A DNA stretch of 37,333 bases from Sedimentisphaerales bacterium (GTDB lineage: Bacteria > Planctomycetota > Phycisphaerae > Sedimentisphaerales > SG8-4), in the NCBI GenBank assembly GCA_016932895.1, contig JAFGCA010000560.1, forward strand, positions 1 through 37,333, given 5' to 3'. Numbering within the stretch: the first letter of the stretch is position 1; every line of letters begins with the position of its first letter. Position numbers and translations under genes: made by a program. Below the pieces are notes generated by a model. It did not search any database. It was not told where the DNA came from and saw only the letters and a list, made by a program, of their open reading frames with translations. Positions 2,542 through 35,953 of the stretch are shown one piece after another.

Positions 2542-2544
2542 AAC

Positions 2545-3208: not shown

Positions 3209-3227
3209 GGGACAGGGCCGTCTGGAT

Positions 3228-5480: not shown

Positions 5481-5613
5481 TGGCGGCTGGCGTGTGCTGG
5501 CGCAGGCCTTCGGGCGTTCGAATCGGCTCGGGCCAGATGCGTGGAGACAGCCACGTTGGCCACGGTAGGAACAAGAGAGATGGTAGGGACACTGTTTCAG
5601 AGATGAGGACACT

Positions 5614-7171: not shown

Positions 7172-7242
7172 GAGATTTCAATTCTCGCCGTATGGCTTCT
7201 CGTTACCGCGTGAAGGATCGCGGCGATCTGCAATTGCGCCGG

Positions 7243-9345: not shown

Positions 9346-9362
9346 CTGAGATAAGTTAACAA

Positions 9363-9379
9363 GTCACACTGAGAGTGAC
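9363..9379. other. Small inverted repeat in an operon junction
   Basis: GTCAC at 9363-9367 pairs with GTGAC at 9375-9379 in the 47-bp gap between the radical SAM gene and waaP. Read on the minus strand it is followed by a loosely T-rich stretch. It could slow transcription or protect an mRNA end, but the stem is short. Confidence 0.25.
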
Positions 9380-9392
9380 CAAGATTTTCCGT

Positions 9393-10910: not shown

Positions 10911-10954
10911 GGTGGCTGCGCGACTGCGTCGATTCACGCGATCGCAGAGAACTC

Positions 10955-12526: not shown

Positions 12527-12530
12527 AAGA

Positions 12531-13580: not shown

Positions 13581-13606
13581 CGTTGTCTCTTTTTCTTGCT
13601 CCTTTT

Positions 13607-14581: not shown

Positions 14582-14601
14582 AGCTTTCTGTACCCGTCAT
14601 G

Positions 14602-15186: not shown

Positions 15187-16670
15187 GTCTCACTCCGCAA
15201 CGCCTTCATTTTCTCTATGGTGGCGGTCGAGCTCTTGCCCTTGACCAGCGGGGCGAGCATGACCTTGCCCCCGTACGATTCCACCAGTTCGTGGCCCACG
15301 ACGCTTTTCTTGCTGCCCCAGTCGCTGCCTTTGATGAGGATGTGGGGGCGAATCCGTTCGAGCAGGGACGTCGGCGTTGGCTCTTCGAAGATCGTGACAA
15401 AATCGACGCTCTCGAGCCCGGACAGCACGGTGGCCCTGTCGATCTGGTTGTTGATGGGTCTGCCTTCTCCTTTCAGGCCGCGAACCGACCCGTCGCTGTT
15501 AAGGCCGACCACGACGACGTCGCCTTGCGCTTTGCAGAATTGCAGGTACTCGATGTGCCCGCGATGGATGACGTCGAAACACCCGTTGGTAAAGACGATG
15601 GTTTGTCCGCGCTCCCGCCGCCCTTTGAGCTCGTCCAAAAGTGAATTGAGCGAGCGCAGCTTCGTGTTCGTCGCGCCAAATCGTTCGGCGATTTCGTGCA
15701 CCATCTCCGACACCGTCACCGTAGCGGTGCCGAATTTCTCGACCGCGATGCCGCCGGCAATGTTGGCCAGATGCACGGCCATGAGGTAGTCACTGTCGGC
15801 CGCCAGGCTTACAGCCAGCGTCGCGAGCACGGCGTCCCCGGCGCCCGTCACGTCGTATACGTTTCGTGGCTTGACGGGCACCAGGTCGTTGATGTCTGCG
15901 GTAGCCAGATAGGCGCCCTCCTTGTCGAGCGTGATGACGACGGCATCGAGGGCCAGGTCCCGGCGCAGACGACATGCCGCCTCGGCCGCTTCGGCAGTGC
16001 TCTCGATCGCATGCCCCACAGCCGCTGCCGCTTCCCGGCGATTCGGCGTCAACACGGTCGCGCCGGAGTATGGGGCGTACGCCGACCCGAGGGCCGGATC
16101 CACCAGGACCCGCGTGCCCATCTCCCGCGCCAGACCGATCATCTGCTGGCACAGCCGGGGCGCGAGCATGCCCTTGTCGTGATCCTGCAGGCACACGATG
16201 TCCACCTCGCGCACACGTTCCCGGTAATGTTGGACAATGCGCTGACGAAGATCGAGCGATAACGGTTCCGTCGGCTCCCGGTCGATTCGCATCAGTTGCT
16301 GCTTGTGCCGATGCTGGGCCAGACCGATGAGCCTTTGCTTGGTTATCGTGGGGCGACCGGGAACCTCCTGCAGGCCCGTCAGGTCCGCGCCAAGTTCCGC
16401 CAGGCTGTCCCTGAGCATCGTGCCGTGGGCGTCTTGTCCGATCGCGCCGATGCAGACGGGCGTTGCTCCCAATGCCGCCACGTCGGCCGCCACGGAGGCC
16501 GCCCCCCCGCAACGGTATTGGGTTTCGGTTACCTTCAGCACCGGCACGGGGGCCTCGGGGCTGATGCGCACGGCGTCACCGTAGACGTACGCGTCAAGCA
16601 TGAAGTCGCCGACCACCAGGATCCTGGGGGCGCCGAGGTTTCCTATCGTTTTGAGCAGTTGTTCGTACAT
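15183..16670 (-). CDS. hldE: Bifunctional heptose-7-phosphate kinase / heptose-1-phosphate adenylyltransferase
   Basis: This 495-residue protein carries both ADP-heptose enzymes. Residues to about 330 are a PfkB-type sugar kinase with ILVVGDFMLDAYVYGDA, RCGGAASVAADVAALGA and the catalytic DVTGAGDAV segment. From about 355 there is a nucleotidyltransferase domain with FTNGCFDVIHRGHIEYL, where H-x-G-H is the catalytic signature, and ILIKGSDWGSKKSVVGHELVE. Domain order and length match E. coli HldE (477 residues). It phosphorylates heptose-7-phosphate at C1 and, after GmhB, makes ADP-D,D-heptose. Its start lies 28 bp inside lpxK and its stop overlaps gmhA, so all three are one transcription unit. 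Confidence 0.95.
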   Translation of the reverse strand: MYEQLLKTIGNLGAPRILVVGDFMLDAYVYGDAVRISPEAPVPVLKVTETQYRCGGAASVAADVAALGATPVCIGAIGQDAHGTMLRDSLAELGADLTGLQEVPGRPTITKQRLIGLAQHRHKQQLMRIDREPTEPLSLDLRQRIVQHYRERVREVDIVCLQDHDKGMLAPRLCQQMIGLAREMGTRVLVDPALGSAYAPYSGATVLTPNRREAAAAVGHAIESTAEAAEAACRLRRDLALDAVVITLDKEGAYLATADINDLVPVKPRNVYDVTGAGDAVLATLAVSLAADSDYLMAVHLANIAGGIAVEKFGTATVTVSEMVHEIAERFGATNTKLRSLNSLLDELKGRRERGQTIVFTNGCFDVIHRGHIEYLQFCKAQGDVVVVGLNSDGSVRGLKGEGRPINNQIDRATVLSGLESVDFVTIFEEPTPTSLLERIRPHILIKGSDWGSKKSVVGHELVESYGGKVMLAPLVKGKSSTATIEKMKALRSET

Positions 16671-17782
16671 TTTCCATCGTCGGATCGGGATGCCTCCTGC
16701 CTCCCGGATCTCTGCAAAACTTGTATTCTATCAGCCAGGGCGCGTTCGATCAAGACCGCAAACTCTGCGGCTCCTTGCCTCAACTCGAGTTTGACCGTCA
16801 GGCAGGCAAAACGGGGCTCTTGGGTCGGTCGGGGCAGGGGGGCGATCTTCGTCCAGTCTTTCTGCGTGGTCGCCACGAGTTCGGCGCCGCATTGTTTCGC
16901 CTTCTCGTGGATTTCGCGAAGGCATCGCTCGGTGTAGTGGTAATGGTCGTCGAAGCCAAGCGATCCCACCAGAACGCATCCCAAACGCTGGAGGGTGTCA
17001 AAAAAGGCCTTGGGATTTCCTATGCCACAGAAGGCGAGGACTTTCTTGTTCCGCAGTTCCCGGAGGTCGATATCGTCGCCTTGGTCCATCCGGGCGCCGA
17101 CGGGAGCGTGGACGGATGCAGCGATCACCAACTCCCTGTGGATACGCCGAAGGCGTTTTTCGATTCGCAGCCGTTGGTCGTCGGTGACCAGGTCGCAGCG
17201 GGTCAGGACCACCGCATGGGCTCGGGCCAGGCCGGCCAGAGGCTCGCGCAACAGGCCCGCCGGCAGCAGCCTGCCGTAGCCGAACGGCAGCGTTGCGTCC
17301 ACGGTCAGAATGTCCAGATCGCGTGCAAGCCGACGGTGTTGGAACCCGTCATCGAGGAGCAGGACTTGGGCGCCGTGGTTGCGGACGGCCTCGGCGGCTC
17401 CTGCCACGCGGTCCGGATCGATCACCACCGGCACCTGCGGACACATCGCCGCAAGCTCGGCCGGCTCGTCGGAGGGCGCGTCCTTCTGCGTCTTGTAGCC
17501 GCGTGTGAGTATAGCAGGGTGAATGTGCCTGTCTCTGAGGAACTGTGCCAGCCAGGCGACCAGGGGGGTTTTTCCGGTACCGCCGGCCGTCAGGTTGCCG
17601 ACACTGATCACCGGCGCCTCGGCCGCGTGAGTGGCGAGCCATCCTCTCGAATAGAGCCCGTTTCTCACCCGCACAACCGCCCCGTAGGGCCATGAGAGGC
17701 CGCGAAGCGAAAGCCGTGCCAGGGCGGCGCCGAAGCCTCGTGCCTGCCCGGACAGAATGTTACGGTACGTCTGCTGGTTCAC
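16643..17782 (-). CDS. lpxK: Tetraacyldisaccharide 4'-kinase
   Basis: The 379-residue protein has an N-terminal hydrophobic, amphipathic stretch, the modified Walker A motif VGNLTAGGTGKTP (about 61-73) and LLLDDGFQHRRL (about 141-152), the two signatures of LpxK. It phosphorylates the 4'-position of tetraacyldisaccharide-1-phosphate in the Raetz pathway, at the inner membrane. The start is GTG at 17780-17782 with AGGAA seven bases upstream. The 3' end overlaps hldE by 28 bp. The last 30 residues are polar and variable. It is the first gene of the LPS run; the 117-bp gap upstream of it shows no convincing promoter. Confidence 0.93.
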   Translation of the reverse strand: MNQQTYRNILSGQARGFGAALARLSLRGLSWPYGAVVRVRNGLYSRGWLATHAAEAPVISVGNLTAGGTGKTPLVAWLAQFLRDRHIHPAILTRGYKTQKDAPSDEPAELAAMCPQVPVVIDPDRVAGAAEAVRNHGAQVLLLDDGFQHRRLARDLDILTVDATLPFGYGRLLPAGLLREPLAGLARAHAVVLTRCDLVTDDQRLRIEKRLRRIHRELVIAASVHAPVGARMDQGDDIDLRELRNKKVLAFCGIGNPKAFFDTLQRLGCVLVGSLGFDDHYHYTERCLREIHEKAKQCGAELVATTQKDWTKIAPLPRPTQEPRFACLTVKLELRQGAAEFAVLIERALADRIQVLQRSGRQEASRSDDGKCTNNCSKR

Positions 17783-19686: not shown

Positions 19687-21372
19687 TTAGTCCAATTTGG
19701 TCAGGTAGAGGCTGCGAAAGCGATGTTGTCCGCCGCCGGGCACCTCGGCCTGGAGGGCGATGTACCCTTTCTCGGGGCCCGCCAGTCCGTCCGCTGTCCA
19801 AGCGGGCGTACCGTTGATTTCCAGCGAGGCTCTGGTGCCTTCCACCGTAAGCTTGAAACGGTTCCATTGGCTCGCCTTGATGAGTCCTTCGCAACGGGCC
19901 TCGGGCAAGGAACCGACGTTACCTTCCATGCCCTGCCTCAGGTTGACCTGGTAGCGGTCAGGCCAGGGGCGGTCCTGGGGGACAGAGTCGTAGCGGAAAT
20001 AGACGCCGCTGTCCCATTGGTTGTCTCGCAACGGTTTCCATTCGAATTCCAGAACGAAATCTCCATATTGCTCTTGGGTTTGCACCAGTCCGTTGCCCGC
20101 GACGATGAGAATATCCCCGTCGTCGGCGGTCGCTTCGCACTTGAGGACCGTCCAGCCGTCCAGGCTCTTGCCGTCGAACAGCGCCACGCGCTCGCTACCG
20201 GAAATCGACCGGGCGGCAATCCATGTGCCGGCGACGTACGTGCCGACCACGCTGCCTACGTTGGCCAGAGCTACGACCAGCAGGATGCGCGTCACAGGGT
20301 TGGTCCAGAAGCCTTTCATCGTACTGATGGCGTCGGGCAAGTCTTCGAGGTCGCTGACCTTGGGTTTCTTGATCACGGCCTGTACAATTCCCGCTACCCA
20401 GCCGGCGGCGAAGAAGGGATTCAGGCTCGTCAAAGGGGCGGCCAGAAACGCCGAGAGAATCGTCAGCGGATGCGCCAGCGCCAACGCGGCGCCGATCGCC
20501 GAGAGCGCGCCGTTGACGAGGAACCAGATGTAGATGTTCTCGATGCCGTGGGCGGTGCCCTTGGTAAACCCGTACAACAGCAGAGCGATGATCGAAAGAG
20601 GAATCCCCCACTTGAGGATCACGGGCCAACGGGATTTCGGGGGCAGCTCCTTGAGCTCGTCGAGGCAATGGTCCTGCTGAATCTGCTCGACGATGCCGGG
20701 AACGTGCCCGGCCCCGACGACGGCCACGACCGTTTCGCCCGGGGCGGTGCGGATCTCCTGGGCCAGGTAGGTATCGCGCTCGTCGATCAGCCTTCTCTTG
20801 ATCTCCGGGAATTTGCCGGCGAATTCCTCCATGACCGCCTCAAGCTGGTCCTTCTTCTTGAGGTTCTCGATCATGTCGGTGTCGATTTCTTCGCGGGTGA
20901 AGATCCCCAGCATGAGCTGCATCATGAGCTTGAGCTTGTTCCAGAAGCCCAGATATCCCCAGACGCGTTTGAGGGTGATTTCGATATCCCGGTCGGCCAG
21001 GACGAGTTGGGCCCCGGTTTTCTCGGCCATATTGATGCCTTCGAGCATCTCGGCGCCCGGCTGGACGCCGAGCTTTTCGCCGAGCCGTCGGTAGAAGGAG
21101 GTCATGATCAACTGGGCCAGCAGGAACACCGCCTTTTTCTGCCGGATCACCTTGAAGATGTTCATTTTGCTCCAGTTGTCCGCCTGGGTCATCGCCTGAT
21201 GCCGGGCCTTGCACAGCTCCACGCAGATCGCCTTGGGCTGCGTCTGCTCGACGGTGCTGCGAACGTCTTCGACGCTCTCTTTGGACAAATGGGCGGTGCC
21301 CACCAGATACACGTCTTTTTCGCCTACCTTCACGTGGGTCACTCGCGCCGGCAATGTCATGTTATCGGTCAT
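19687..21372 (-). CDS. TraB/PrgY family membrane protein fused to a DUF1080 domain
   Basis: The 561-residue protein joins two families. Residues 1-230 are TraB/PrgY-like: VYLVGTAHLSKES with the conserved GTAH, EIDTDMIENLKKKD, and VVAVVGAGHVPGI with the conserved GAGH. Residues 245-400 hold about five hydrophobic segments (for example WGIPLSIIALLLYGF and ILLVVALANVGSVVGTYVAG). From about 405 to the end is a DUF1080 (3-keto-disaccharide hydrolase-like) beta-sandwich: VALFDGKSLDGWTV, EFEWKPLRDNQWDSGVYFR, WNRFKLTVEGTRASLEINGTPAW, GYIALQAE. The two halves share one frame with no stop. The start at 21372 is preceded by AGGAG. TraB-family proteins are proposed metalloproteases; DUF1080 proteins bind or cleave sugars. 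Confidence 0.85.
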   Translation of the reverse strand: MTDNMTLPARVTHVKVGEKDVYLVGTAHLSKESVEDVRSTVEQTQPKAICVELCKARHQAMTQADNWSKMNIFKVIRQKKAVFLLAQLIMTSFYRRLGEKLGVQPGAEMLEGINMAEKTGAQLVLADRDIEITLKRVWGYLGFWNKLKLMMQLMLGIFTREEIDTDMIENLKKKDQLEAVMEEFAGKFPEIKRRLIDERDTYLAQEIRTAPGETVVAVVGAGHVPGIVEQIQQDHCLDELKELPPKSRWPVILKWGIPLSIIALLLYGFTKGTAHGIENIYIWFLVNGALSAIGAALALAHPLTILSAFLAAPLTSLNPFFAAGWVAGIVQAVIKKPKVSDLEDLPDAISTMKGFWTNPVTRILLVVALANVGSVVGTYVAGTWIAARSISGSERVALFDGKSLDGWTVLKCEATADDGDILIVAGNGLVQTQEQYGDFVLEFEWKPLRDNQWDSGVYFRYDSVPQDRPWPDRYQVNLRQGMEGNVGSLPEARCEGLIKASQWNRFKLTVEGTRASLEINGTPAWTADGLAGPEKGYIALQAEVPGGGQHRFRSLYLTKLD

Positions 21373-25101: not shown

Positions 25102-27834
25102 TTATCGGCGGGGCTCGGGCGTTTCAGGGGGCTCTTCCGGTCGGGGGATCCCCACCTCAGATGTCGACCACGCGGTCATATTGCCGTACCCGTCTCGTGC
25201 CATGACGCGAAACCGGAGGGCCTGGTTTTCCCGGCCGACCAGGACGGTGTAGGACGGATCGGTTTGCCAGCCGCTGCTCAGGCCGTCGGGAACGACGCCT
25301 GGGTAATCCCGGCACTCGAAGAAGTACTCAACCGGCCCGCTGGGATCGACCGCTTCGACGGCCTTCATCTCGACCCAATAGTCGTTCCAGCCACCGCCGC
25401 CGGAAAACTCACGGGGCAAGCCGTACTCGTCCCATTGGGCGGGGTCCGGTTGCGGGGCAGCCGCGTCTCCCGAGGACGGCCCCGGCGCTCCCGCCAGCCT
25501 CATGAGCCATTGATCGGAGACGATCGCCAGGTCGCGCAGGTCCACGATTCCGTCATGGTTGATGTCCGCTGCCAGGGGCCATTCGCTCATGCTCGCCTCC
25601 GCCGTACCGCCGAAAGCGCCCATGTTGATCCGGCCCCCGTTGGGCATACGCTCGGCGCCCACGTCCACCGCCGGATCGCCGGCGTCGACGCAGGGACTGG
25701 TTCTCGTGTCGAACGACCAGAGTCCGTAGGCCGGAACGTACCGCCCCTTTTCGGCGAGCAGGTGGTAATCCCCGCCGGCGGTGTCGGCAAGAAGCGGGTC
25801 GGTGCTAATGTTGCCCTGGCCTTCGGCGCCCTGCTCGACGCAACTGAAGCGGGTCGTGCAACCGAACAGATCGCCCTCCAGGTTGCCCCAGATGACGCAG
25901 TTGCTGATATCGGGATTGGCGCCGGCGTACGCGGCGATGCCGAATTCATTATTGGCGAGCGTCACGTTCCGTATCGTGGGTGAGCTGCCCGCGATGAAGA
26001 TGCCCGTATCGCTGTTCTGGATAACGAAGTTCTGGAGAACGCTGCCCGGGCCTTCCGCCGAGTAGAACGAGACGGCGTAATCGCCCGGCGCCTCCAGAAC
26101 GGGTGCGCCGCCCACACCCATGACGGTGATGTCCTTGCCCTGAAATTCGATTTCCTCGGTGTAGAGGCCGGGCAGGACCATCACGGTGTATCCATCCAGG
26201 GCGGCATCGATGCCTCTCTGAATCGTGGCAAACGGTTTTCCGGGGCTTCCGCCCGGGTTGGAATCGTCGCCCCGAATCGCATCGACGTAGAAGTGGAACG
26301 GTCCGTGGAACTCATACGCGCCCATATCGACGCGCCCGTCGGCAACGCGCGGGTAGCCCGCCAGGTCGGTCTCGTCCAGTGATTGCACCGCTTTATTGTT
26401 TCCGGTGTCGATGCAGAGCGAGCCCAGCGAGAGTCGAAGATCATCGTCGAGGGTGCCGGCAATGCCGTCGGGGCCGACGGGGTCGCGGAACTGCGGGTCG
26501 GCGTCGATATTCATCTCGCTGCCGGAGCCGAAGTAGCCGCCCTGGATGTCATTGTAGCGTACAGGCCCGCTCGTGCTGTCGTCGGCCAGCCGCAGCTCGT
26601 TGGGGGTGTTGGCCCAGAAGATACAATTCTGGACGTTGCGGCCGGTGCCGGTCTGGTAAACGGCGCCGCCGTCCTCGGAAGCGTGATTCGCCGTCACCGT
26701 GCAGTTGGCCAGAGACAGCACCCCCTCCTGCTCGAAGAACAGGGCGCCGCCAAACCGTGCGGTGTTGCCGTTAAACACGCAGTTGCTTATGGTGGGGCTG
26801 CCGGTGAAACAGGCGATGGCTCCACCCTCTCCGTCGGCGGTGTTGCCGGTAAACCAGCATCGGGTCAGCGCGGGATCGGCCTCGAAACTGGCGATCGCGC
26901 CGCCGCCGCAAGGAGCGTCGAGACTGGCGACGATATTGCCGGAAAAGGTGCAATTCACGAACTGCGGATCGCAGGCCGATACGAGGGCCCCGGCGCCGTA
27001 GCCGGCGGAAGCGTGGCCGAAGACGATGTTGCCCTCGAAAGAGCACTGGCGGAAGGTCGGGCTGGTGCCCTCGCCGGAGCATGCCACACCGGCGCCGCCG
27101 ACGGCGCCTTGCAGGGCGGCCCGCGTCACGTTCCGGTAGAACCGGCAGCGAATGAGCGTCGCGGTGGTGTTGGCCAGGAACGCGCCGGCCCCGTCGGTGG
27201 CGGGATGCGGCACGGGCGCTTCCCCGGCATGGGGCCAGCCTTCGATTGCCCCGTCGGCGAATCCGCCCGTGATCGTCAGCCCGTCCAGGACGGTATTGCT
27301 GTCGGGCCCGTCGTCGAGGGTGAGGACGGTTAGACTGTTGTCGGCCAGGCTCGGGTGCGTGACGTACTCGAGAACATCCTGCGCCCCGTCACCTGCGAAT
27401 TCGATATCGTTGCCCTTCAAATCTCCGCTCAGGATGGTCTGATAGCGTTCGATGTCCCTCTCGTCCGGATTCGCGGCGCCGTACCCGGCGTAGCCTCCCT
27501 TGACAACCGCCCCGGGGCGGATGTTGAAAGTGGCGTTGCGATCCCCGGTGATGACGACATGGCGTCTGCTCGAGCCGCGCAGAGGTTGTGCCTCCCGGTC
27601 GGGTTGGTAGACGCCCTGGGCGACGCGAACCTCGGACCCCGCTCCTGCCATGGCGAGGGCCCATTCGAGGCACAGGTAGGCCTCGCGCCAGCTTGAGCCG
27701 TCGCCGTCGCCGAGGTTTTCGCTGCGCGGATCGCAATAGATGGTCCGGCCGGCGGCCGGAGGCGACACCCCGGCACAGACCGTCAGAGCGATGCCCGCAA
27801 CCAGACGAATGAGCACGCGTTTTTCCGTTTTCAT
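25102..27834 (-). CDS. Secreted right-handed beta-helix protein with a dockerin motif
   Basis: The 910-residue protein starts at ATG 27834, with the strong Shine-Dalgarno GGAGCGGAGG just upstream; the TTG at 27888 is not used. A signal peptide (about 26-30 residues) is followed by YCDPRSENLGDGDGSSWREAYLCLEWAL, a common opening of secreted parallel beta-helix proteins. Many short turns of NCTFSGNI / CWFTGNTADGEGG type repeat through about 200-480, and a second helix block runs 540-700 (DDSNPGGSPGKPFATIQRGI). A dockerin-type calcium motif, DINHDGIVDLRDL, lies at about 752-764, with one clear repeat. The C-terminal FRVMARDGYGNMTAWST segment is fibronectin-like. It may bind or act on polysaccharide outside the cell; no catalytic residues are identifiable. 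It follows the sigma-fusion gene by 50 bp. Confidence 0.85.
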   Translation of the reverse strand: MKTEKRVLIRLVAGIALTVCAGVSPPAAGRTIYCDPRSENLGDGDGSSWREAYLCLEWALAMAGAGSEVRVAQGVYQPDREAQPLRGSSRRHVVITGDRNATFNIRPGAVVKGGYAGYGAANPDERDIERYQTILSGDLKGNDIEFAGDGAQDVLEYVTHPSLADNSLTVLTLDDGPDSNTVLDGLTITGGFADGAIEGWPHAGEAPVPHPATDGAGAFLANTTATLIRCRFYRNVTRAALQGAVGGAGVACSGEGTSPTFRQCSFEGNIVFGHASAGYGAGALVSACDPQFVNCTFSGNIVASLDAPCGGGAIASFEADPALTRCWFTGNTADGEGGAIACFTGSPTISNCVFNGNTARFGGALFFEQEGVLSLANCTVTANHASEDGGAVYQTGTGRNVQNCIFWANTPNELRLADDSTSGPVRYNDIQGGYFGSGSEMNIDADPQFRDPVGPDGIAGTLDDDLRLSLGSLCIDTGNNKAVQSLDETDLAGYPRVADGRVDMGAYEFHGPFHFYVDAIRGDDSNPGGSPGKPFATIQRGIDAALDGYTVMVLPGLYTEEIEFQGKDITVMGVGGAPVLEAPGDYAVSFYSAEGPGSVLQNFVIQNSDTGIFIAGSSPTIRNVTLANNEFGIAAYAGANPDISNCVIWGNLEGDLFGCTTRFSCVEQGAEGQGNISTDPLLADTAGGDYHLLAEKGRYVPAYGLWSFDTRTSPCVDAGDPAVDVGAERMPNGGRINMGAFGGTAEASMSEWPLAADINHDGIVDLRDLAIVSDQWLMRLAGAPGPSSGDAAAPQPDPAQWDEYGLPREFSGGGGWNDYWVEMKAVEAVDPSGPVEYFFECRDYPGVVPDGLSSGWQTDPSYTVLVGRENQALRFRVMARDGYGNMTAWSTSEVGIPRPEEPPETPEPRR

Positions 27835-27884
27835 GACCTCCGCTCCTTTCTCAAGGTCGTTTCGCCGTATTTCTGATGTTGATC

Positions 27885-29768
27885 TCAACGTTCCTCGGCG
27901 AGTTGGCTCAGCCAGAGCATGCCGGGCTCGTGGCGGAAGACGCCTGCGGAAACGCTCCTCGGCGGGGCGGCAAACGAATCCTCGATTCGGTCGATGTCCT
28001 GGATGTAATCGAAGTGCAACTCCCCGATACGCTTGGTTCCCTGCGTGGCCTTGCGCAAGAAGACAATCTCCTTGATGACGTCGGTTTCCATGTCCACGGT
28101 GTAGACCAGATCGAGAGGTTCGGCGTGCACCGTGACGCTCGCGTAGCCGGTGTCTGCGTCGTAGGCCGTCTCAAAGCGCAATTGCCGCTCGGCGGCGTCG
28201 CGCCGAATCGTGTCGATACAGTGCAGGCCGAGCCAGGGTCGCCCCAGGCCTTTGAAGAAGCTCCCCCCCGGGTAGCGTACCGCGATGCGGTCATGGCCCT
28301 CGGCGATATGCGCGCCCTCCGGCGTATCGACGAACAGGAGATTCCCCCCCACGCGCAACTTGAGCCAGGGGGCGTGCCCGGCCCGGGCGGCGTAGACGAA
28401 CGGCATTCGGCCGTTGCCGGAGATGGGGGTGCCGTTTAGCTCCCCGTCGATGCGGAAATACGTCCATCCGCGCTGGTGCATCGCGTCCCGGCGATCGACG
28501 GTTCTTGTGCTCTCGGGCCAGCTATGTTGGAAGTACTCTTCCGCCAGCGCGTTGATACGCCGTTCGATCCGCCAGATCCGGGTTCCCTTTCGCCCCTGGC
28601 GTTTGCACAGGATCAGCAGACCGCTCCTTCCGCTTGCGGTCAGTTCCATATCCGAGGGCCGTCCTTCGACCTGCGCGATGAACTCGCTCAGAGCGGCGCT
28701 GTCCGTGGGCAATCGCTTGACCGACAGGTCGGGTTTCCACGCCCGGTGGTTGTCGATGCGAACGGCCTTTTGCCGGTGGTCATAGTGGTAATTGGCGTAC
28801 TGGTTCTCGAGGATGCGGCAGCAGGGCGTCGCGCCGGGCGAGTCGTATTCCAGCAGGCGGGTCATGACCGCACCGTCGGGTCCCTGCGGGAAGTAGTGCC
28901 AGCATTCCTGCTCGGCCGTGCCGGGTTGGTTCGTCCAGGGCGCCGCCGGCAGCGCTTCGGAGCCGACGAACCTCGAAGCGACCACCGAGCCCGGTGCCCG
29001 GTAGTGGCCGACCGTTACCGAACCCGCGATAAGCGCCGCGGCGCTCAAGGCTGTGATAACGGTCGCCTTGCCCGTGAGCAGGGCCACCAGGGCCGCCAGC
29101 GGACCGACCGTTACCGTGGGCGCCGTCACGGAGACCTGCGCTGCGGCCGCTTCGCTGGTAGCCGTGACCTTCCCGAACACCACCAGAGCCAGAAGCAGCG
29201 AATGCCTGCCCAGGCCGTGCGCCGACAAACGCCGGGCCAGGGCTTTCTTGGCGCGATAGAACAGGGCCCGCACGGCGATCTCCGACCGGTGCATCAGACG
29301 TGCGATTTGGGCATACGACATCTGGTCGTAGCAGCGCATGCTCAGGACCGCCCGGTGCCGGGGCTCCAACTCGCCGATGCACTGGAGCACGATCTGCCGA
29401 AGCTCGGCGGTGACGGCCTCCGCCAAAGCGTCACCGCCGCCGGCGCCCCGGGGCTCGTAGCCCACCTCGGAGAAGCAGCGCGTTTTCTGCCGCCAGCGCT
29501 TCCCGTAGTGGTTGCGCACCTTGTTGAAGGCGATGCCGTACAGCCAGGGCCAGAACTTCTCGCGCCGCCGCAGGTTCTCAAAGATCCGTAACATCTCCAG
29601 AATCGTCTCCTGTACGATATCCTGCGTCAAATCCTCTTGCAACGTCAGGCGAAACACGTATTCGTGCAGGCGGACCCTCGCCGCTTCAGCCAGGCGATTC
29701 AGACTCTCGGTGTCGCCGAGCTGTGCTTTCCGGGCCAACTCAACAGTGTCTTCAACGCTGCCAGACAT
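27885..29768 (-). CDS. ECF-type sigma-70 factor fused to membrane segments and a large C-terminal domain
   Basis: The 627-residue protein has sigma-70 region 2 at about 25-90 (LTQDIVQETILEMLRIFENL, KFWPWLYGIAFNKVRNHYGKR) and region 4 at 130-180 (ELEPRHRAVLSMRCYDQMSYAQIARLMHRSEIAVRALFYRAKK), a complete ECF sigma factor. Hydrophobic segments follow at about 189-206 and 222-252, and then some 370 residues of unknown fold containing Tyr- and Trp-rich strands and the end MLWLSQLAEER. ECF sigma factors of this size with C-terminal extensions are known from Planctomycetes. The start is taken at MSGSVED; the upstream MKKP frame has no better ribosome binding site. The ligand is unknown. It is followed by the beta-helix gene. 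Confidence 0.82.
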   Translation of the reverse strand: MSGSVEDTVELARKAQLGDTESLNRLAEAARVRLHEYVFRLTLQEDLTQDIVQETILEMLRIFENLRRREKFWPWLYGIAFNKVRNHYGKRWRQKTRCFSEVGYEPRGAGGGDALAEAVTAELRQIVLQCIGELEPRHRAVLSMRCYDQMSYAQIARLMHRSEIAVRALFYRAKKALARRLSAHGLGRHSLLLALVVFGKVTATSEAAAAQVSVTAPTVTVGPLAALVALLTGKATVITALSAAALIAGSVTVGHYRAPGSVVASRFVGSEALPAAPWTNQPGTAEQECWHYFPQGPDGAVMTRLLEYDSPGATPCCRILENQYANYHYDHRQKAVRIDNHRAWKPDLSVKRLPTDSAALSEFIAQVEGRPSDMELTASGRSGLLILCKRQGRKGTRIWRIERRINALAEEYFQHSWPESTRTVDRRDAMHQRGWTYFRIDGELNGTPISGNGRMPFVYAARAGHAPWLKLRVGGNLLFVDTPEGAHIAEGHDRIAVRYPGGSFFKGLGRPWLGLHCIDTIRRDAAERQLRFETAYDADTGYASVTVHAEPLDLVYTVDMETDVIKEIVFLRKATQGTKRIGELHFDYIQDIDRIEDSFAAPPRSVSAGVFRHEPGMLWLSQLAEER

Positions 29769-29922
29769 CCGTACCTGTAAGTAAGTCTGACGATCCCGCT
29801 CTATGTGACGCCATCCAGCAGGTTTTTTCACGATTTTTTTGCGGGATGGACGCGGAGAGTCGCCGGGCGCAGATCGTCCCGCCGTTGGCCTTCCGGGGGC
29901 GTGGTTTCTTACGGCCGTAGCC
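29769..29922. other. Intergenic gap with A/T tracts
   Basis: The 154-bp gap separates the pseudopilin/serpin-like gene from the sigma-fusion gene, both on the minus strand. It has two T-runs on the plus strand (29822-29827 and 29834-29840), read as A-runs in the direction of transcription. They could be an UP-like element for a promoter of the sigma-fusion gene, but no -10 stands out. They are not a terminator in the direction of these genes. Confidence 0.3.
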
Positions 29923-31947
29923 TCATGGATGCGAGGAGCCGCTTCGCGTCGGCGTATCGTACCGCTGCATCAGCTCAGCGTTATCCACCCACATGACGAA
30001 GAAGGGCTTTGCATCGGGTTGACGCTTGCGGACATAGATCAAGAACGGCCGGTCGAAGGTGAAGTATCGCGGCTTGTCTACGGGGTCGTCGCGTCGGGCC
30101 GGTGGCATTACGATACGGGCCTCGGATTTCAGGATTACGCCCGTTCGGCTCAGGGCGAAGTCGATCTTCTGCCTGGCTTCGACGATAAAATAATCTACCC
30201 CACCCGGATTTCCATTGACCAGAAACTTGTCCAAGAGTTCCACAAAATCATGCGTCAGTTCGTAAAGAACGTCCGGGACAGTCAAACGGTCGATAGGACG
30301 GAGCTTGCGCAGAGCCTCGTACTCGGCCCGGTCTCGGAACGCCGCGATTTCTCTTTCAACGTCAGCCAGCGTGGCACGCAGCGTGTTCCCACGTGGCGCC
30401 CGGGCGAGCACGACCTGATAGGGCTGTGTGTGCTTGCACAGATCCACCGCAGACTCGGCTGTGTTTCGATTCTCCCCGGACCTGTAGTAGAGATTCTCAA
30501 CCTGCTCGCGCACCGCCGCCACGTTAGCAGAGGGCGATTCGTTGAGCGCCCGAAAGGATGCGACGTTCGTGCGGACGGCATTTGAATCCTGAAACCTGAA
30601 TGCCTGATTGTTCACGTAGAACGGATGTGCAAAGCCGACGTCCACGTTCAGGTAGGCGTAGGAGATGATGGTCGGACCTGGAAATTCGTTGTACCGTTTT
30701 CCAAATATCGGCTGGAGCTCGCCGGGAAACTGCCTGGCCATGTCGCGGTGGATTTGCTCGATGACGCCGTCCTTGATCAGGCCGGCGGTTGTGTAGAACG
30801 ATTCGGCTTCGAGGGCGTCGGGCGGAAACGGGGCGGCGTTCAGACGCGCGGCCATGTTGGGCTCGTCGTGAAGCTGGATGGGCTCGCCGATGATGTCCTC
30901 TCTGAGTTTGTCCCAGGCCATTTGAAACGTCCCACACCAGACGACGTTCTTGTGTGGCGACAGGGGGCAATCGAGCGTTGCGACCACGGCAGTCTGCGCG
31001 AGGTCTCGGGTGTCAACGCGCTGCGGCTCGGCGGTTCTTATCGTGGGCTTCTGCGGGGCCGGGTCGTGAACAAGGACCGAATCATGCCGGTTCGACGGAT
31101 CGAAGTGGCTGGCCGGGGGAGCCGTGCCAAACGAATCGCCCGTGTCCATGTTGTTGCTGATCGTGTAGATGTTATCGTCGTTAAGGCTGCAATACGCGCG
31201 TTCTTCAAAGGCGACGTGACCGTCCAGGAACAAGACGTTCTGACCTTCCTGGCCGTGGCTGAGGGTGTTGCCTTCGCGGGCCTGTTCCGCTGTGCCGTGC
31301 CATGGCGGGATATCGGGCATGAATCGGCCCATGGTCTCGCCCTTGGCAGCCGGGCTGCGCAGCCACGGGTTTCGGTCCGCAGCAACCGCCATGCACGGAT
31401 CGTGATGGGCGGTCGTCAAGGCGTACAGGCCGAATGGCATGTGGTAGGCGTAGCTGCAATGGCGATACGCCTCGGGCCCGAAATCCCAGGCGTCGGTCAG
31501 CTCGAAATCCGCCGGCAGGTCTGGGACTTCCGCCAGTTCGAAGGCCGTCGTTCCCGCATCGTCCGGACATACAAACTCAGCAGGAGCCATGCCCGCGTAC
31601 CTGACGAGCAGGTAGAAGCACGAGCTGATCGTGGCGGTGCCGCCGGTGTTGTCAGATCGAGCGATTCCGAAGGCGTCGTAGCGATCCCCCGCCCGCCAGT
31701 TGCGGACCACTCCCCAGCATGTGCTACGCCCTCCCGCGCGAGGCAGCGCGCCGTCATAATCGTTGGCATAGACGAGCATCGCCTTGCCGATCTGCATCAA
31801 GTTCGCCGCACAGCGCACCCGCGCGGCGTCGGATTGAGCCTTTCGGCCCGCAACGGGCACTGCGACCAGAAGAAACGCTCCCACCAGTGTCACGACGACG
31901 ACTTCGATGTGTGTAAGACCGCGCGAATTGTCTCGATTCGCGACCAT
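29923..31947 (-). CDS. Pseudopilin-like N-terminus fused to a serpin-like domain
   Basis: The 674-residue protein starts at ATG 31947 after GGAGGGAAG. Residues 10-35 form a prepilin-like helix (G followed by LTHIEVVVV, Glu+5 kept). Residues 230-250 contain HGQEGQNVLFLDGHV, the tail motif of planctomycete DUF1559-like proteins. From about 315 to 660 the order of motifs recalls serpins. KNVVWCGTFQMAWDKL resembles the first serpin strand-helix, and TIISYAYLNVDVGFAHPFYV the N-A-x-x-F-x-x-x-W strand region. YQVVLARAPRGNTLRATL is followed by RLTVPDVLYELTHDFVELL, and the final FTFDRPFLIYVRKRQPDAKPFFVMWV has the conserved F-x-D-x-PF-x-x-x-R ending. The hinge (S600-R-T-G-V-I-L-K) lacks the small residues of inhibitors, so protease inhibition is unlikely. 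Alternative: an unrelated beta-rich domain. Confidence 0.7.
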   Translation of the reverse strand: MVANRDNSRGLTHIEVVVVTLVGAFLLVAVPVAGRKAQSDAARVRCAANLMQIGKAMLVYANDYDGALPRAGGRSTCWGVVRNWRAGDRYDAFGIARSDNTGGTATISSCFYLLVRYAGMAPAEFVCPDDAGTTAFELAEVPDLPADFELTDAWDFGPEAYRHCSYAYHMPFGLYALTTAHHDPCMAVAADRNPWLRSPAAKGETMGRFMPDIPPWHGTAEQAREGNTLSHGQEGQNVLFLDGHVAFEERAYCSLNDDNIYTISNNMDTGDSFGTAPPASHFDPSNRHDSVLVHDPAPQKPTIRTAEPQRVDTRDLAQTAVVATLDCPLSPHKNVVWCGTFQMAWDKLREDIIGEPIQLHDEPNMAARLNAAPFPPDALEAESFYTTAGLIKDGVIEQIHRDMARQFPGELQPIFGKRYNEFPGPTIISYAYLNVDVGFAHPFYVNNQAFRFQDSNAVRTNVASFRALNESPSANVAAVREQVENLYYRSGENRNTAESAVDLCKHTQPYQVVLARAPRGNTLRATLADVEREIAAFRDRAEYEALRKLRPIDRLTVPDVLYELTHDFVELLDKFLVNGNPGGVDYFIVEARQKIDFALSRTGVILKSEARIVMPPARRDDPVDKPRYFTFDRPFLIYVRKRQPDAKPFFVMWVDNAELMQRYDTPTRSGSSHP

Positions 31948-31984
31948 GTTTCTTCCCTCCACTGGTCTCTCCGCAGGCGAAGGT

Positions 31985-34387
31985 TTAGTCCTGTACGGTG
32001 GTTTCGTATCGGACACCTTCGGGTACAGGGACGGGTACGGCGACGGAGACGCCGTGATCGCCCTGGGTTCGGTGGGCGGAATCGACGGCGACGAAGGCGG
32101 TGTAGGCGCTCATGAGGCCGTACTCGAGGGCGACCTGTCGGATCTCGCCGGGCAGGTCGGGGTTGTTGTCGTAGGTGGCCCGGCCGGCCAGGTCCTCGAT
32201 CCGCTTGCGGGCCCAGACGCAGGCGACGCCGGTGTGGGTGGCGTCGTCGTCGTCGAAGGTCACGGGGATGGTGATCTCCTTCGAGAAATCGCCCAGGCTG
32301 CCGGTGACGCGGATGGTGGTGTCCTGGCGTCCGTTGAAGCGGCCGGTGACGATCAGGGGCCGGCCGACGAACAGGTCGGGCGTGCGGGCCGGGTAGACGC
32401 CGGTCACTTCGAGGGAGCCCCAGTCGATCTCGACGTCCGTCAGGGCGGGGTGGCTGATGCAGTCGTAGAACCGATCCACGATGTCACTGGAGCTGTCGTT
32501 GAGTCCGACGTAGGCGACGGCGCCCTTGCCCAGCTTGGCCATGCGGTCGAGCAGGTAGCGGTTGACCGAGGAGCCGACGCCGAAGCTGAAGATGCGACTG
32601 GAGCCGAGCTTGTCGTGGACGGCGCCGAGGATCTGGGCCTCGTTGCCGATGTACCCGTCGGTCAGGAAGGAGACCAGGCGGAAGCGTCGCGGGTCGTGTG
32701 GAAAATCGAGCGCCGCCTTGACGCCCTCGATCATCATGGTCCCGCCGCCGCCGTGCAGGGCATCGACGTACTCGAGCGCCTTACGCACGTTCTCGGGTGT
32801 GGCCGGCACCGGGTCCGGGCCGAACTGCGAGGCGCTCTGCGAAAAGCGAATGACCTGGAACGTGTCGTCGGGCTCGAGCTTGCGGAGGGCTCGCTTGACG
32901 GCGTCCTTGGCCTTGGCGATGGGCTCACCGCTCATGCTGCCCGAACAGTCGAGCACGAAGACCATCTCCATGGGGGCACGCTTGAGGTGCCGCAGGTCGT
33001 CGGGCGGATAGAGCATGAGCGTGAAGAAGCCGCCCCGCTCGTCGGTGTGGGTGACCAGCGCCGACTTGATTCGCTTGCCCGCCACCTTGTAGCGCAGGAC
33101 GAAGTCTTTGTTGGGGATGCTGTCGAGTTCGCTGAGGCGGATATGAGCCTTCTCCGGCGTCGATTTGCTGTTCCTGATCGCGTGGCTGGGGGAGGCGATT
33201 GCCTCGATTGTGACGCCTGCGTCGATGTCCACCGCCACGGCGATGTCGTGTCCGCTGCGCTCGTTGGGCTTGAGGTACTGGACCTCGGTTTCCTGGCCCG
33301 AGAGGCCCGCCTTGCCTCGTCCCACGGCGCCGACGCCGTCGGTGGTGCCGGGAGGGTTGAATCGCGGCCCGACCACCATCGGAAAGACGAATTCGTACCA
33401 GCCGTCCACGTAGGCCAGCGTGTTGAAATACTTGATATCGACGTCGATTTTCTTGCCCGGCTCGATGTTGGCGACCTTCTGCGTGAAGATGTTGGGTCGC
33501 TCCTGGGTCAGCAGCGAGGCGACGTGGCCCTGCCTCCGCGCCTCCTGATAGATAGCCTCGGCCTCCTGGCGCTCGCGGATGATCCCGCGGATGCGCCGCT
33601 CGCCGATGACCATGACGAACTCGTTGACCGCGGCGTTCTGGGGCAGCGGGAAGACGTACACCGCCTCGATCTTCTCGTCGTAGGGATTGTGGAACTGCTG
33701 GATGACGTGAACGGTGGCGATGTAGCCGCTGATCTGCCCCTTGACGTCCGTATGCTTGAGCGGCAGGGCAATCTCTTCTTCCTCGACCTTCGTCAGCATC
33801 GCCCCGCAGCCGGGCGTGTCGTACTCGGTGCCGGCCGGCGGCGCTTCGGCCTTGGCGATCACCCAGATCTCATCGGCCGTGACATAGGCCAGATCGACAG
33901 GGACGCGCCCCGCCGGCGCATATCGCGGCCCCGCCGGCGTTCGCCCGCGCGCCGAGGGTCGGGCAGCCAATCCCCTCATTCCGCCCCCGTAGCCTCCCAT
34001 GCCCCCCATGTCTCCCATCATGCCGTCGTCGTCGCGGTAAGCATCGTGATACCAGAAGTGGGCGCCGGCGGTGGGCTTGTCGCCCAGGGCTGGTATCCTT
34101 GTCCGGGGCCGGCTCAGGGGCTTCGGTCTTCCGGTCGTTGCCGCGGGCGCGCGGTCCACGTCAGGTTTGGGTCCGGCTTCCGAATCGCGGATGTCTTTCC
34201 AGTCAGTCGGGTATGTCGTCTCCTGCACTGCCGGTGGCCCATCGACGCCTTCGGCCGCCGCTTGTGGTTGCGTTGGCTTCGCAGGCGAAGGGGAGTGGGA
34301 GCTGCAGCTCAGTGACGGGATGAACAATGCCGTCAGCAGGAGTGCCAGCGTGACTGCGATGGACGTGACAAGGATGGCCCGCTTCAT
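31985..34387 (-). CDS. VIT and von Willebrand A domain protein
   Basis: The 800-residue protein has an N-terminal hydrophobic segment ending at LSC (Cys28 could be lipidated, though the lipobox is imperfect). A Pro/Ala/Gly/Met-rich linker with many MG repeats runs to about 165. A VIT domain (about 203-335) contains QFHNPYDEKIEAVYVFPLPQNAAVNEF and IIRERQEAEAIYQEARRQGHVASLL. A VWA domain (about 473-650) has the MIDAS D480-x-S482-x-S484 in MVFVLDCSGSMSG and a later FLTDGYIGNE. This architecture resembles VIT/VWA surface proteins such as inter-alpha-trypsin inhibitor heavy chains and proteobacterial sortase targets, but no sortase motif is present. It binds metal and probably another protein. The start overlaps the cohesin-like stop in ATGA. 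Confidence 0.9.
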   Translation of the reverse strand: MKRAILVTSIAVTLALLLTALFIPSLSCSSHSPSPAKPTQPQAAAEGVDGPPAVQETTYPTDWKDIRDSEAGPKPDVDRAPAATTGRPKPLSRPRTRIPALGDKPTAGAHFWYHDAYRDDDGMMGDMGGMGGYGGGMRGLAARPSARGRTPAGPRYAPAGRVPVDLAYVTADEIWVIAKAEAPPAGTEYDTPGCGAMLTKVEEEEIALPLKHTDVKGQISGYIATVHVIQQFHNPYDEKIEAVYVFPLPQNAAVNEFVMVIGERRIRGIIRERQEAEAIYQEARRQGHVASLLTQERPNIFTQKVANIEPGKKIDVDIKYFNTLAYVDGWYEFVFPMVVGPRFNPPGTTDGVGAVGRGKAGLSGQETEVQYLKPNERSGHDIAVAVDIDAGVTIEAIASPSHAIRNSKSTPEKAHIRLSELDSIPNKDFVLRYKVAGKRIKSALVTHTDERGGFFTLMLYPPDDLRHLKRAPMEMVFVLDCSGSMSGEPIAKAKDAVKRALRKLEPDDTFQVIRFSQSASQFGPDPVPATPENVRKALEYVDALHGGGGTMMIEGVKAALDFPHDPRRFRLVSFLTDGYIGNEAQILGAVHDKLGSSRIFSFGVGSSVNRYLLDRMAKLGKGAVAYVGLNDSSSDIVDRFYDCISHPALTDVEIDWGSLEVTGVYPARTPDLFVGRPLIVTGRFNGRQDTTIRVTGSLGDFSKEITIPVTFDDDDATHTGVACVWARKRIEDLAGRATYDNNPDLPGEIRQVALEYGLMSAYTAFVAVDSAHRTQGDHGVSVAVPVPVPEGVRYETTVQD

Positions 34388-34848
34388 TTTACGTCTCCTC
34401 TTTCCAGGTTGAGTTTGGCAGGGAGTTCTCGGCCGTCGGCGTCGGCGGCGACGGCGAGGTCGAGTTCATACTCGGGCTCGGCGGCGCCGAGGATTTGCAG
34501 ATGGACGGTGGCGATGCGCGTCCGGCCTTTCGGCAGGTCACGGCCCGTGTTGAAGGCGGCGATGATGATGCGGTCCTTCGCCAGGGCCGCCGGGTCGTAG
34601 TAGGGGGCTTCTTTGAACGCGGCGTGCTCTCCGCCTTCGACGCCCACGATCTTGATCTTGCCGGTCGTGGCTCTCAGCTCGAACTGATACGCCGCCAGCG
34701 GCTTACGGCCCGAATCGAGGTAGATGTGCACGGGGGCAAACCGCACTCGAGGCTTTGCAGGAACGGCGGCGGGGGCGATTCGGGTGGCGGTAAGCAATGT
34801 CGCCACGCACGCGCCGATCAGGCCGATCACCATCCATCGTTTCATCAT
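34384..34848 (-). CDS. Small secreted cohesin-like protein
   Basis: The 154-residue protein has a signal peptide of about 25-28 residues (MMKRWMVIGLIGACVATLLTATRIAPAA). The mature part of about 125 residues is a single all-beta domain: VHIYLDSGRKPLAAYQFELRATTGKIKIVGVEGG, then RIIIAAFNTGRDLPKGRTRIATVHLQILG, then YELDLAVAADADGRELPAKL. This order, with a long AYQFEL strand and the late R-I-A-T-V-x-L strand, is that of cohesin domains. Cohesins bind dockerins, and a dockerin protein lies directly upstream. The start codon shares a base with the stop of that gene and the stop overlaps the next ATG. Assignment rests on pattern only. Confidence 0.6.
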   Translation of the reverse strand: MMKRWMVIGLIGACVATLLTATRIAPAAVPAKPRVRFAPVHIYLDSGRKPLAAYQFELRATTGKIKIVGVEGGEHAAFKEAPYYDPAALAKDRIIIAAFNTGRDLPKGRTRIATVHLQILGAAEPEYELDLAVAADADGRELPAKLNLERGDVK

Positions 34849-35321
34849 TAGACCCCTTTATTCAGGCGGACGGCGGCCCGCGCCACCTGGTCTACATCGT
34901 CGCGATTGACGAGGCCGTCGCCGTTGATGTCCCACGTTCGCTTCGTCGGGCTTGCCGACTCGATGTGCCGGGCCAGGCGGAAGGCGTCGATGATGTCCAC
35001 GCGGCCGTTGCGGTCGATGTCGGCTCGCTTCATATCGGCCGCGACCCGGGTGGCGTGCGGCGCGGGACCCCGAAGCCCCGGCACATAAACGGTCCAGACG
35101 ATGACCGCCGCAGCGGTCGTAGCAGCGGCAACCGCCCAGCGGACCCACCAGAGCCTCCGGGGCTGCCGGCTGAAGTGCCCGCGGGCCGCCTCCGCGACGG
35201 CCCGATCGATATCTTCCGGCACCTGCCCCTGCGGGCCGAAGATCGCTCCGAGGTCTTTTGAAAAGCGCGGCGACACGCTCAAGCCCATTTCATCATCGTG
35301 ATGTTCTTTGCGTTCGGTCAT
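34848..35321 (-). CDS. Single-pass membrane protein with an extracytoplasmic dockerin
   Basis: The 157-residue protein has three parts. Residues 1-56 are a polar, cytoplasmic-type region (MTERKEHHDDEMGLSVSPRF, then VPEDIDRAVAEAARGHF). A transmembrane helix follows at about 57-80, with RQPRR before it, which places the N-terminus inside the cell. Residues 95-157 are a two-repeat type I dockerin: D101-I-D103-R-N105-G-R-V-D109 and D131-I-N133-G-D135-G-L-V-N139, both calcium loops complete. This layout, directly downstream of an ECF sigma gene, is that expected of an anti-sigma factor or other membrane regulator, but no known anti-sigma motif is visible. It precedes the cohesin-like protein. Confidence 0.78.
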   Translation of the reverse strand: MTERKEHHDDEMGLSVSPRFSKDLGAIFGPQGQVPEDIDRAVAEAARGHFSRQPRRLWWVRWAVAAATTAAAVIVWTVYVPGLRGPAPHATRVAADMKRADIDRNGRVDIIDAFRLARHIESASPTKRTWDINGDGLVNRDDVDQVARAAVRLNKGV

Positions 35322-35368
35322 AATTGCATCTCCATCTCGTTAAGCACACGAGCAGGGCAAAAGGTTCA

Positions 35369-35400
35369 TTGCGTCTGAGATTTTTCTCGCCCCGACGCAA
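35369..35400. terminator. Hairpin in the gap after the ECF sigma gene
   Basis: TTGCGTC (35369-35375) pairs with GACGCAA (35394-35400), with an inner GAG/CTC pair, giving a two-part stem with an A/T loop. It starts eight bases after the sigma stop, in the 86-bp gap before the dockerin gene. No T-run follows on the minus strand, so it may be a processing or attenuation hairpin rather than a full terminator. Confidence 0.3.
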
Positions 35401-35407
35401 ATTTGTC

Positions 35408-35953
35408 TCATTCAAGGAAATACTCGCGCGTCCGGGGATCGTCGCGCAGCTTGCGCAGGGCGTTGTGGAGGCGGGATTTGGCCGTACCGAGGGGAATGTC
35501 CAGGCTCGCGGCGATCTCCTCCAGACTCATACCGTCGACGAAACGCATGAGTACGACCTCGCGCTGCTCGCTCGACAAGGACGCCATGGCCGCGGCCAGC
35601 TCCGCCCGCGATGATTCAGGCGGTTCGGGGGCCGGGATCTCGTCGAAAGCTACTTCGTCCAATGGCCTGGCGGCGCGCCTGCGGCGTACGTTCAGCGACA
35701 GGTGCTTGACCACGGGGTAGAGAAACGTTGTCATCGAGGCCGTCAGCCGAAAGCCGGGGAACTTTTTGAGCAGGTACACAAATGTCTCCTGGACCACGTC
35801 CAGGGCGTCCTGCGGATTGCCCGTAAAGCGCCAGGCGAGGTGGTACACCCAGTCACGGTGGCGGTGGTAGAGGCGCTCGAAGGCCTCGGCCTGTCCTCCA
35901 TTGGCCCGCTCGATCAACTCCTCGTCGCTTTCCACGTTTCGCTCCGCACACAC
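35408..35953 (-). CDS. ECF-family RNA polymerase sigma factor
   Basis: The 181-residue protein is a normal-length ECF sigma factor. Region 2 has DALDVVQETFVYLLKKFPGF (-10 recognition helix area) followed by MTTFLYPVVKHLSLNVRRRR. Region 4 has LSSEQREVVLMRFVDGMSLEEIAASLDIPLGTAKSRLHNALRKLRDD, a standard helix-turn-helix. The long start is GTG at 35953; another GTG at 35935 has GGAG seven bases upstream and is a good alternative. ECF sigma factors redirect polymerase to genes of envelope and stress responses, usually held by an anti-sigma partner. The next gene codes for a membrane dockerin protein that could be that partner. Confidence 0.9.
   Translation of the reverse strand: MCAERNVESDEELIERANGGQAEAFERLYHRHRDWVYHLAWRFTGNPQDALDVVQETFVYLLKKFPGFRLTASMTTFLYPVVKHLSLNVRRRRAARPLDEVAFDEIPAPEPPESSRAELAAAMASLSSEQREVVLMRFVDGMSLEEIAASLDIPLGTAKSRLHNALRKLRDDPRTREYFLE

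Follow-up and report, generated by a model that had tools for sequence, protein, structure and literature searches.

What is a dockerin, a plug module best known from cellulose-degrading machines, doing at the outer end of a membrane protein that is encoded next to an extracytoplasmic function (ECF) sigma factor? The question is raised by a 37,333-nucleotide window (the whole stretch of DNA that was analysed) from contig JAFGCA010000560.1 of Sedimentisphaerales bacterium (assembly GCA_016932895.1). The module at positions 31985..35953 comprises four minus-strand genes, encoding an ECF sigma factor, a membrane dockerin protein, a small secreted cohesin-like protein and a VIT/VWA protein (Table 1). 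All four genes described in an initial annotation are present, and the coordinates bear out its statement that the last three overlap, by 1 base between the dockerin and cohesin genes and by 4 bases between the cohesin and VIT genes. Based on the computed gene order, a promoter-like element, the cohesin fold, the dockerin and the zinc-finger anti-sigma relatives of the dockerin protein, we hold with moderate confidence that the module is an ECF sigma/anti-sigma switch with the cohesin-dockerin pair as its outer sensor. This would be an uncommon means of surface sensing in bacteria. ECF sigma/anti-sigma pairs are a main bacterial route for envelope sensing, and for many anti-sigma outer domains no ligand is known. 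In this module, by contrast, a docking domain can be recognised at the outer end and its likely partner is encoded next door, so the signal step could be tested directly with two small soluble domains.

Recurrence of the module and its sigma factor

Relatives were recruited through the VIT/VWA protein from one-genome-per-species contigs, and 80 of 91 confirmed stretches were retained. All 80 are metagenome-assembled genome records whose taxa were taken from the record titles, some possibly mis-binned; they include Planctomycetota, Verrucomicrobiota, Gammaproteobacteria (including Woeseiaceae), Binatia and a few others. Genes were scored by a fixed script rule, and 61 of the 80 loci had room for the complete module, defined as at least 2.5 kb upstream of the VIT gene. 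Among these 61 loci, the cohesin was found in 57, the dockerin protein in 56, the sigma factor in 52 and all three in 50, with the sigma gene on the same strand in 42 of the complete loci and divergent in 8. The recurrence of the gene order in 50 of 61 relatives is more than chance; conservation in relatives had been set beforehand as a check, and the order extends well beyond Phycisphaerae. The 19 loci with less room contained the cohesin in 12 cases, the dockerin protein in 8 and the sigma factor in 3, with 3 complete. Two of the 61 loci, L069 (a fusion) and L072 (VIT frame called too long), possess the genes although the script rule failed. The window gene downstream of VIT encodes a prepilin-like protein (29923-32016, minus strand; weak DUF1559) that overlaps the VIT/VWA stop. 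It has a counterpart beside VIT in just 2 of the 80 loci and was placed outside the core.

A search with the cohesin profile only, without the VIT/VWA protein, identified 22 places in 21 of 199 Planctomycetota genomes, a set that overlaps with the 80 VIT relatives in several genomes. A dockerin-protein homologue was adjacent in 20 of the 22, a sigma factor was present in the short fetched stretch in 13, and a VIT/VWA homologue in 12. The weaker profile matches revealed a sister branch, whose modules have a sigma factor, a membrane dockerin protein and a cohesin that in most cases bears a lipobox-like signal. No VIT/VWA homologue was found in the wider stretches fetched around the sister modules L111-L117 and L157-L161. 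A second search with the sister cohesin gave matches in 37 of 392 genomes. In the zinc-type module L113, a DUF4349 protein (5971-7188, plus strand) follows the cohesin gene instead of VIT/VWA. An apparent sigma-cohesin fusion in L146, a frame of 648 aa, was rejected as a frame artefact: its sigma portion stops short, and the dockerin gene is read in a different frame.

The window sigma factor scored above the cut-offs for Sigma70_r2 (E=2.8e-15), r4_2 (E=2.6e-17) and TIGR02937 (95.6 bits, cut-off 42.9); its true start may be the internal GTG at 35935. In all nine genomes searched, its best match was a module's own sigma factor, mostly by a wide margin (244.9 vs 62.4 bits in G003; at the smallest, 104.5 vs 90.5 bits in G160, where the second-best sigma has no dockerin gene beside it). 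A quick tree was built from the window sigma, 29 of 55 VIT-module sigmas, 9 sister sigmas and 20 other ECF sigmas; it is unrooted and contains several long rows, that of sister L115 being very long. Module sigmas of both types fell on one side of a branch separating them from the 20 other ECF sigmas (support 91), and those of the VIT modules grouped together (support 97), with L065, which retains the zinc motif, at the base of the group. Taken together, we read the module sigma as a putative dedicated sigma factor.

Zinc-finger relatives of the dockerin protein

The initial annotation suggested that the membrane dockerin protein occupies the place of an anti-sigma factor. Support for this guess came from its homologues, three of which exceed the zf-HC2 cut-off. 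In the sister branch, most members carry the HxxxCxxC motif at the cytoplasmic end of the dockerin protein (L117 lacks it). The zf-HC2 score was above the Pfam cut-off in L114 (38.0), L116 (23.3) and L133 (29.4), and Dockerin_1 was above its cut-off in the same proteins. The zf-HC2 match was below the cut-off in L113, L134, L140 and L143, and was not listed for L111, L112, L115 and L136, though the motif is present in them. Additionally, a scan of the collected frames detected proteins with HxxxCxxC and, after it, a calcium-loop motif in L065 and in 12 of the 37 sister-cohesin genomes. Three of these proteins, in L065, L143 and L146, belong to VIT/VWA-linked modules and match the NF052375 anti-sigma model (E=1.5e-5, 3.2e-11 and 1.5e-8, respectively, all below the cut-off). 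These zinc motifs on homologues lend strong sequence-based support to a putative anti-sigma role of the membrane dockerin protein.

The hydropathy scan found a single hydrophobic segment in 58 of 64 dockerin proteins and none in 6. In the window protein this segment starts at about residue 62, leaving a cytoplasmic part of about 58-60 residues, against 56 in the initial annotation. In a joint alignment of the zinc and window types, the juxtamembrane helix, the membrane helix and the dockerin align; the window type lacks the zinc part and keeps the helix with P-x-x-x-D before the membrane. With L065 at the base of the VIT modules in the sigma tree, the zinc part may have been lost in proteins of the window type. 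Consistently placed, the NF052375 match of the window protein (residues 39-101, profile positions 55-125) covers the later part of the model, i.e., the juxtamembrane and membrane helices. A structure model of the L069 fusion (predicted template modelling score, pTM, 0.55) contains cytoplasmic helices at 12-25 and 33-56 with moderate confidence; no PDB fold match to these helices was among the matches listed, all of which concerned one domain.

According to the accessible parts of one study, class I anti-sigma domains grip sigma through helix 1 and helix 4, helix 2 being not critical, and the class II factor CnrY binds sigma likewise with two helices in the places of class I helix 1 and helix 4 (PMC7406223). 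The zinc-type module relatives share HxxxCxxC with class I, and the window type is predicted to have two cytoplasmic helices, as CnrY does. The modelled two-helix form would fit a reduced CnrY-like anti-sigma domain. It differs from both classes in its outer domain, a dockerin, and sigma binding by the window's own dockerin protein is predicted.

The putative cohesin-dockerin pair and the promoter-like element

The small protein, described initially as a secreted cohesin-like domain, has a signal-like N-terminus, and a cohesin fold was found for it in the structure search that had been set beforehand as a check. By sequence, the window protein matched no Pfam model, Cohesin (PF00963) included. 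Across 76 members of the family, PF00963 gave 4 weak matches (best E=0.0049), and no Pfam domain was found in any of 120 cohesin homologues among the matches listed. Sequence searches of the PDB returned one match at E=1.2 with the single sequence and none with the profile. Homologues are numerous, with 2065 at E<=0.001 among 2911 candidates. In the sister branch, the L115 cohesin scores 24.8 bits against Pfam Cohesin (cut-off 24.1). The VIT-linked and sister cohesin families align over 117 columns with a probability of 99.7.

In the window dockerin, Dockerin_1 (PF00404) scored 35.1 bits against a cut-off of 22.9, which together with the single hydrophobic segment agrees with the proposed two-loop dockerin outside the membrane; the match qualifies it as type I, and PDB dockerins were matched by profile (best E=3.3e-9). 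Dockerin_1 was detected at E<=0.01 in 51 of 65 proteins. Loop 1 is well conserved: 63 of 65 proteins keep the first Asp and 64 of 65 the twelfth residue. Ile occupies position 10 in 60 of 65 and Leu occupies position 11 in 48 of 65, as a single dedicated partner would explain. Furthermore, two natural dockerin-cohesin fusions, 79% identical, are suggestive of a cohesin-dockerin pair, and in this module the two proteins would be in contact. An attempt to read docking from fusion alignments was set aside, as three mixed alignments either placed dockerin rows against the cohesin or divided them. In L042, L044, L074, L048 and L058 (Binatia and Gammaproteobacteria), the second loop is gone, the last helix is kept, and the cohesin is a distinct variant with an ENGDS motif.

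The sigma-to-dockerin gap of 86 bases contains an element with the ECF promoter layout, TGAACCTTTTGCCCTGCTCGTGTGCTTAA at 35368-35340, that the initial annotation missed. With a two-block matrix, 57 of 64 dockerin upstream regions (window included) scored above the 99th percentile of random windows. This figure was scored on the training sequences, and a cross-group test is fairer: training on 45 Planctomycetota regions (by title, window included) recognised all 19 others, 18 of which are titled as other phyla, L065 being without a phylum. Reverse training on those 19 recognised 33 of the 45 Planctomycetota regions. The VIT modules with the zinc motif scored 29.0 (L065), 28.0 (L143) and 19.2 (L146). 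In the sister branch, the score exceeded 11 in 2 of 11 modules and was lower in the others. The element also occurs upstream of the sigma gene in 7 of 55 cases; the window sigma gene lacks it. We infer that the module sigma uses the TGAAC...CTTAA promoter.

A strict version of the promoter pattern gave 8 perfect sites in 6 of 16 genomes, against 1 for a reversed control pattern. Six of the 8 lie at modules, four before the dockerin gene and two before the sigma gene (L053, L073). The site in L083, antisense inside a peptidase gene, was taken as chance and rejected as a target. The remaining site, in the Binatia genome L081 (1501-1529, minus strand), is a perfect consensus that overlaps the stop of a gene for a carbon-nitrogen hydrolase. 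About 80 bases further along the same strand comes a gene for a glycine-zipper outer-membrane lipoprotein (940-1422, minus strand), which by sequence may be a real second target of the module sigma in that genome. Ten of the 16 genomes had no perfect site, though nearly all were picked for holding a module, so the strict pattern is too strict for regulon mapping.

Proposed switch, alternative readings and surroundings

In the proposed switch, the dockerin protein would be the anti-sigma factor: its two-helix cytoplasmic part would hold the sigma factor, its helix would cross the inner membrane, and its dockerin would lie in the periplasm, where the secreted cohesin from the next gene would dock on it with calcium. 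The cohesin would act as a periplasmic co-anti-sigma subunit, keeping the anti-sigma factor intact and the sigma factor held as long as it is docked. If the cohesin were pulled off, whether through the VIT/VWA protein, a surface ligand of that protein or loss of calcium, the anti-sigma factor would be inactivated and the sigma factor freed. Free sigma would then start the dockerin-cohesin-VIT/VWA operon from the promoter before the dockerin gene, and operon expression would resupply anti-sigma factor and cohesin, closing the loop. Both the direction of this switch and the part given to VIT/VWA belong to the proposal; the opposite sign, with cohesin binding as the release signal, could apply as well. 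By analogy, the logic would resemble RpoE-RseA-RseB, which likewise combines a sigma factor, a membrane anti-sigma factor and a periplasmic partner in one operon, the partner here being a cohesin and not an RseB-type protein. RseB keeps RseA in the holding state.

The VIT/VWA protein (VIT E=1.1e-35, VWA_3 E=4.5e-19 in Pfam) was annotated initially with an intact MIDAS (metal ion-dependent adhesion site), and 73 of the 74 relatives with at least 600 aa carry the MIDAS-type motif DxSGSMxG. The suggestion that the VWA protein takes part in signalling received no direct support, the sister modules being formed by sigma factor, anti-sigma-dockerin protein and cohesin alone in the stretches fetched. 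VIT/VWA was added in one branch, and that it provides an input is a guess. The protein shares the VIT/VWA architecture of the marine proteobacterial sortase target TIGR03788, matched over profile positions 3-595 of 629 with 497.3 bits, below the cut-off of 551.65. A C-terminal LPXTG and a membrane helix are defining traits of these targets; here, neither was found in any of 74 relatives. A marine sortase was detected in 3 of 12 genomes, once above the cut-off, and sortase replacement was accordingly dropped as the main story and kept as a comparison only.

Several observations weigh against the switch. The window's dockerin protein has no HxxxCxxC and a weak anti-sigma match (NF052375, E=0.0032, below the cut-off); of six other proteins of the window type, four gave weak matches (E 0.00069 to 0.059) and two gave none. 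The motif is likewise absent from the 65-row dockerin-protein alignment, in which L065 lacks it owing to a trimmed start, its full protein retaining it, and from 120 homologues among the matches listed. A profile comparison of the two dockerin-protein families aligned the dockerin part alone and not the cytoplasmic parts. The second calcium loop is lost in some Gammaproteobacteria and Binatia members and the first is broken in L026, L031 and L065, so docking via calcium cannot be universal; the dockerin is also below the Pfam cut-off in sisters L111 and L112 and was not found for L134. The L069 model, at its pTM, gives no evidence on docking, and the promoter matrix from reverse training did not recognise 12 of the 45 regions from Planctomycetota. 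No sigma factor was found within the span searched in 6 of the 61 loci with room (L002, L005, L009, L018, L062, L078), and VIT/VWA stands without dockerin or cohesin in three others (L004, L060, L079), the L004 genome having two modules at other places.

These three loci would suit a surface anchor, in which the membrane dockerin tethers cohesin and VIT/VWA in the envelope and the sigma factor, controlled otherwise, merely turns on the operon. Judged by their titles, most of the PDB cohesins and dockerins matched come from cellulosome scaffolds, and with neither LPXTG nor a C-terminal helix in the VIT/VWA relatives, another anchor would make sense. However, zinc anti-sigma motifs on the homologous dockerin protein and modules lacking a VIT/VWA homologue in the stretches fetched make this reading rather unlikely. 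The well-kept residues of loop 1 would also fit a calcium or metal sensor, whose EF-type dockerin loops move the anti-sigma factor while the cohesin plays a stabilising role or acts on a different target. We regard this as quite improbable, since the Gammaproteobacteria and Binatia members that lost the second loop retain the helices and the cohesin, and the natural fusions argue for the pair. A cellulosome-like degrading complex, the proposed planctosome, with the sigma factor regulating enzyme genes, recalls the cohesin/dockerin modules of freshwater Nemodlikiaceae in the accessible parts of PMC6461901, and a beta-helix protein in the window has one dockerin-like loop. It appears highly improbable: the perfect promoter sites lie at modules, before a lipoprotein gene or antisense in a peptidase gene, the operon contains no Pfam-recognised enzyme, and its single cohesin is not a scaffoldin.

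Returning to the sigma/anti-sigma switch, a close comparison is with the SigI/RsgI biomass sensors of Clostridium thermocellum and its relatives, which, in the accessible parts of their descriptions, also combine a sigma gene with a membrane anti-sigma factor bearing an outer binding module and a link to cohesins and dockerins (PMC6056542, PMC3413522, PMC11557425). There, the outer modules of RsgI are described as carbohydrate-binding modules, PA14, glycoside hydrolases and the like, whereas here the outer module is a dockerin, the sigma factor is ECF instead of SigI, and the cohesin is encoded next door. No RsgI domain was among the window's Pfam matches at E<=1, and the sigma factor scores as ECF, which places the module outside SigI/RsgI. 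The planctosome or non-cellulosomal cohesin-dockerin proteins likewise belong to Planctomycetes and lie outside cellulose degradation; the accessible parts of that paper describe no anti-sigma role for them (PMC6461901). In the partial literature on dockerins and anti-sigma factors, mostly on cellulosomes and biomass, no dockerin appeared as an outer domain; key ECF catalogues fall outside this scope, and an earlier mention is possible.

If correct, the switch would mean that in Planctomycetota cohesins and dockerins outside cellulosomes act in regulation, and it would give the cohesin protein a named family. A wider history can be offered tentatively: the cohesin-dockerin lock, familiar from scaffolds, possibly came to serve several phyla as the outer switch for a dedicated family of ECF sigma factors, with the anti-sigma factor ending in a dockerin and the cohesin next door. 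In one branch, a VIT/VWA surface protein would have joined as the mechanical or metal-dependent input, while the zinc finger of the anti-sigma domain was reduced to two helices.

Table 1. Features of the module in the 37,333-nucleotide window
Feature	Positions	Strand	Basis or remark
ECF sigma factor, 181 aa	35408..35953	-	Pfam Sigma70_r2 and r4_2
ECF-type promoter-like element, TGAAC-N19-CTTAA	35340..35368	-	47 bases upstream of dockerin gene
Membrane dockerin protein, putative anti-sigma factor, 157 aa	34848..35321	-	Dockerin_1; weak NF052375
Proposed reduced two-helix anti-sigma domain, cytoplasmic, residues 1-58 of dockerin protein	35148..35321	-	Alignment with zinc-finger relatives; L069 fusion model
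Membrane-spanning helix of dockerin protein, residues 62-80	35082..35138	-	Hydropathy scan
Dockerin domain, two calcium-type loops, residues 100-148	34878..35024	-	Pfam; PDB dockerin profile matches
Secreted cohesin-fold protein, 154 aa, cohesin domain residues 33-150	34384..34848	-	
VIT/VWA protein, 800 aa; VIT residues 210-320, VWA residues 474-623	31985..34387	-	Pfam; TIGR03788 below cut-off

Further genes were observed in the window. Downstream of the module, a second ECF sigma factor (27885-29831, minus strand) has a frame of 648 aa, which goes on through a hydrophobic segment to an extended C-terminal region with no Pfam match. It is followed by a beta-helix/choice-of-anchor Q surface protein (25102-27888, minus strand) with the single dockerin-like loop DINHDGIVDLRD in its C-terminal part, for which Dockerin_1 was not significant (E=0.052). 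The region at about 1276-17782 has the look of lipopolysaccharide-type glycan synthesis, with LpxK, GT9 heptosyltransferases, SIS, PfkB-cytidylyltransferase, a HAD phosphatase, two Kdo/WaaP-type kinases and further glycosyltransferases. Finally, a TraB/PrgY/GumN domain is joined to a 3-keto-disaccharide hydrolase domain in one protein at 19687-21372 (minus strand).

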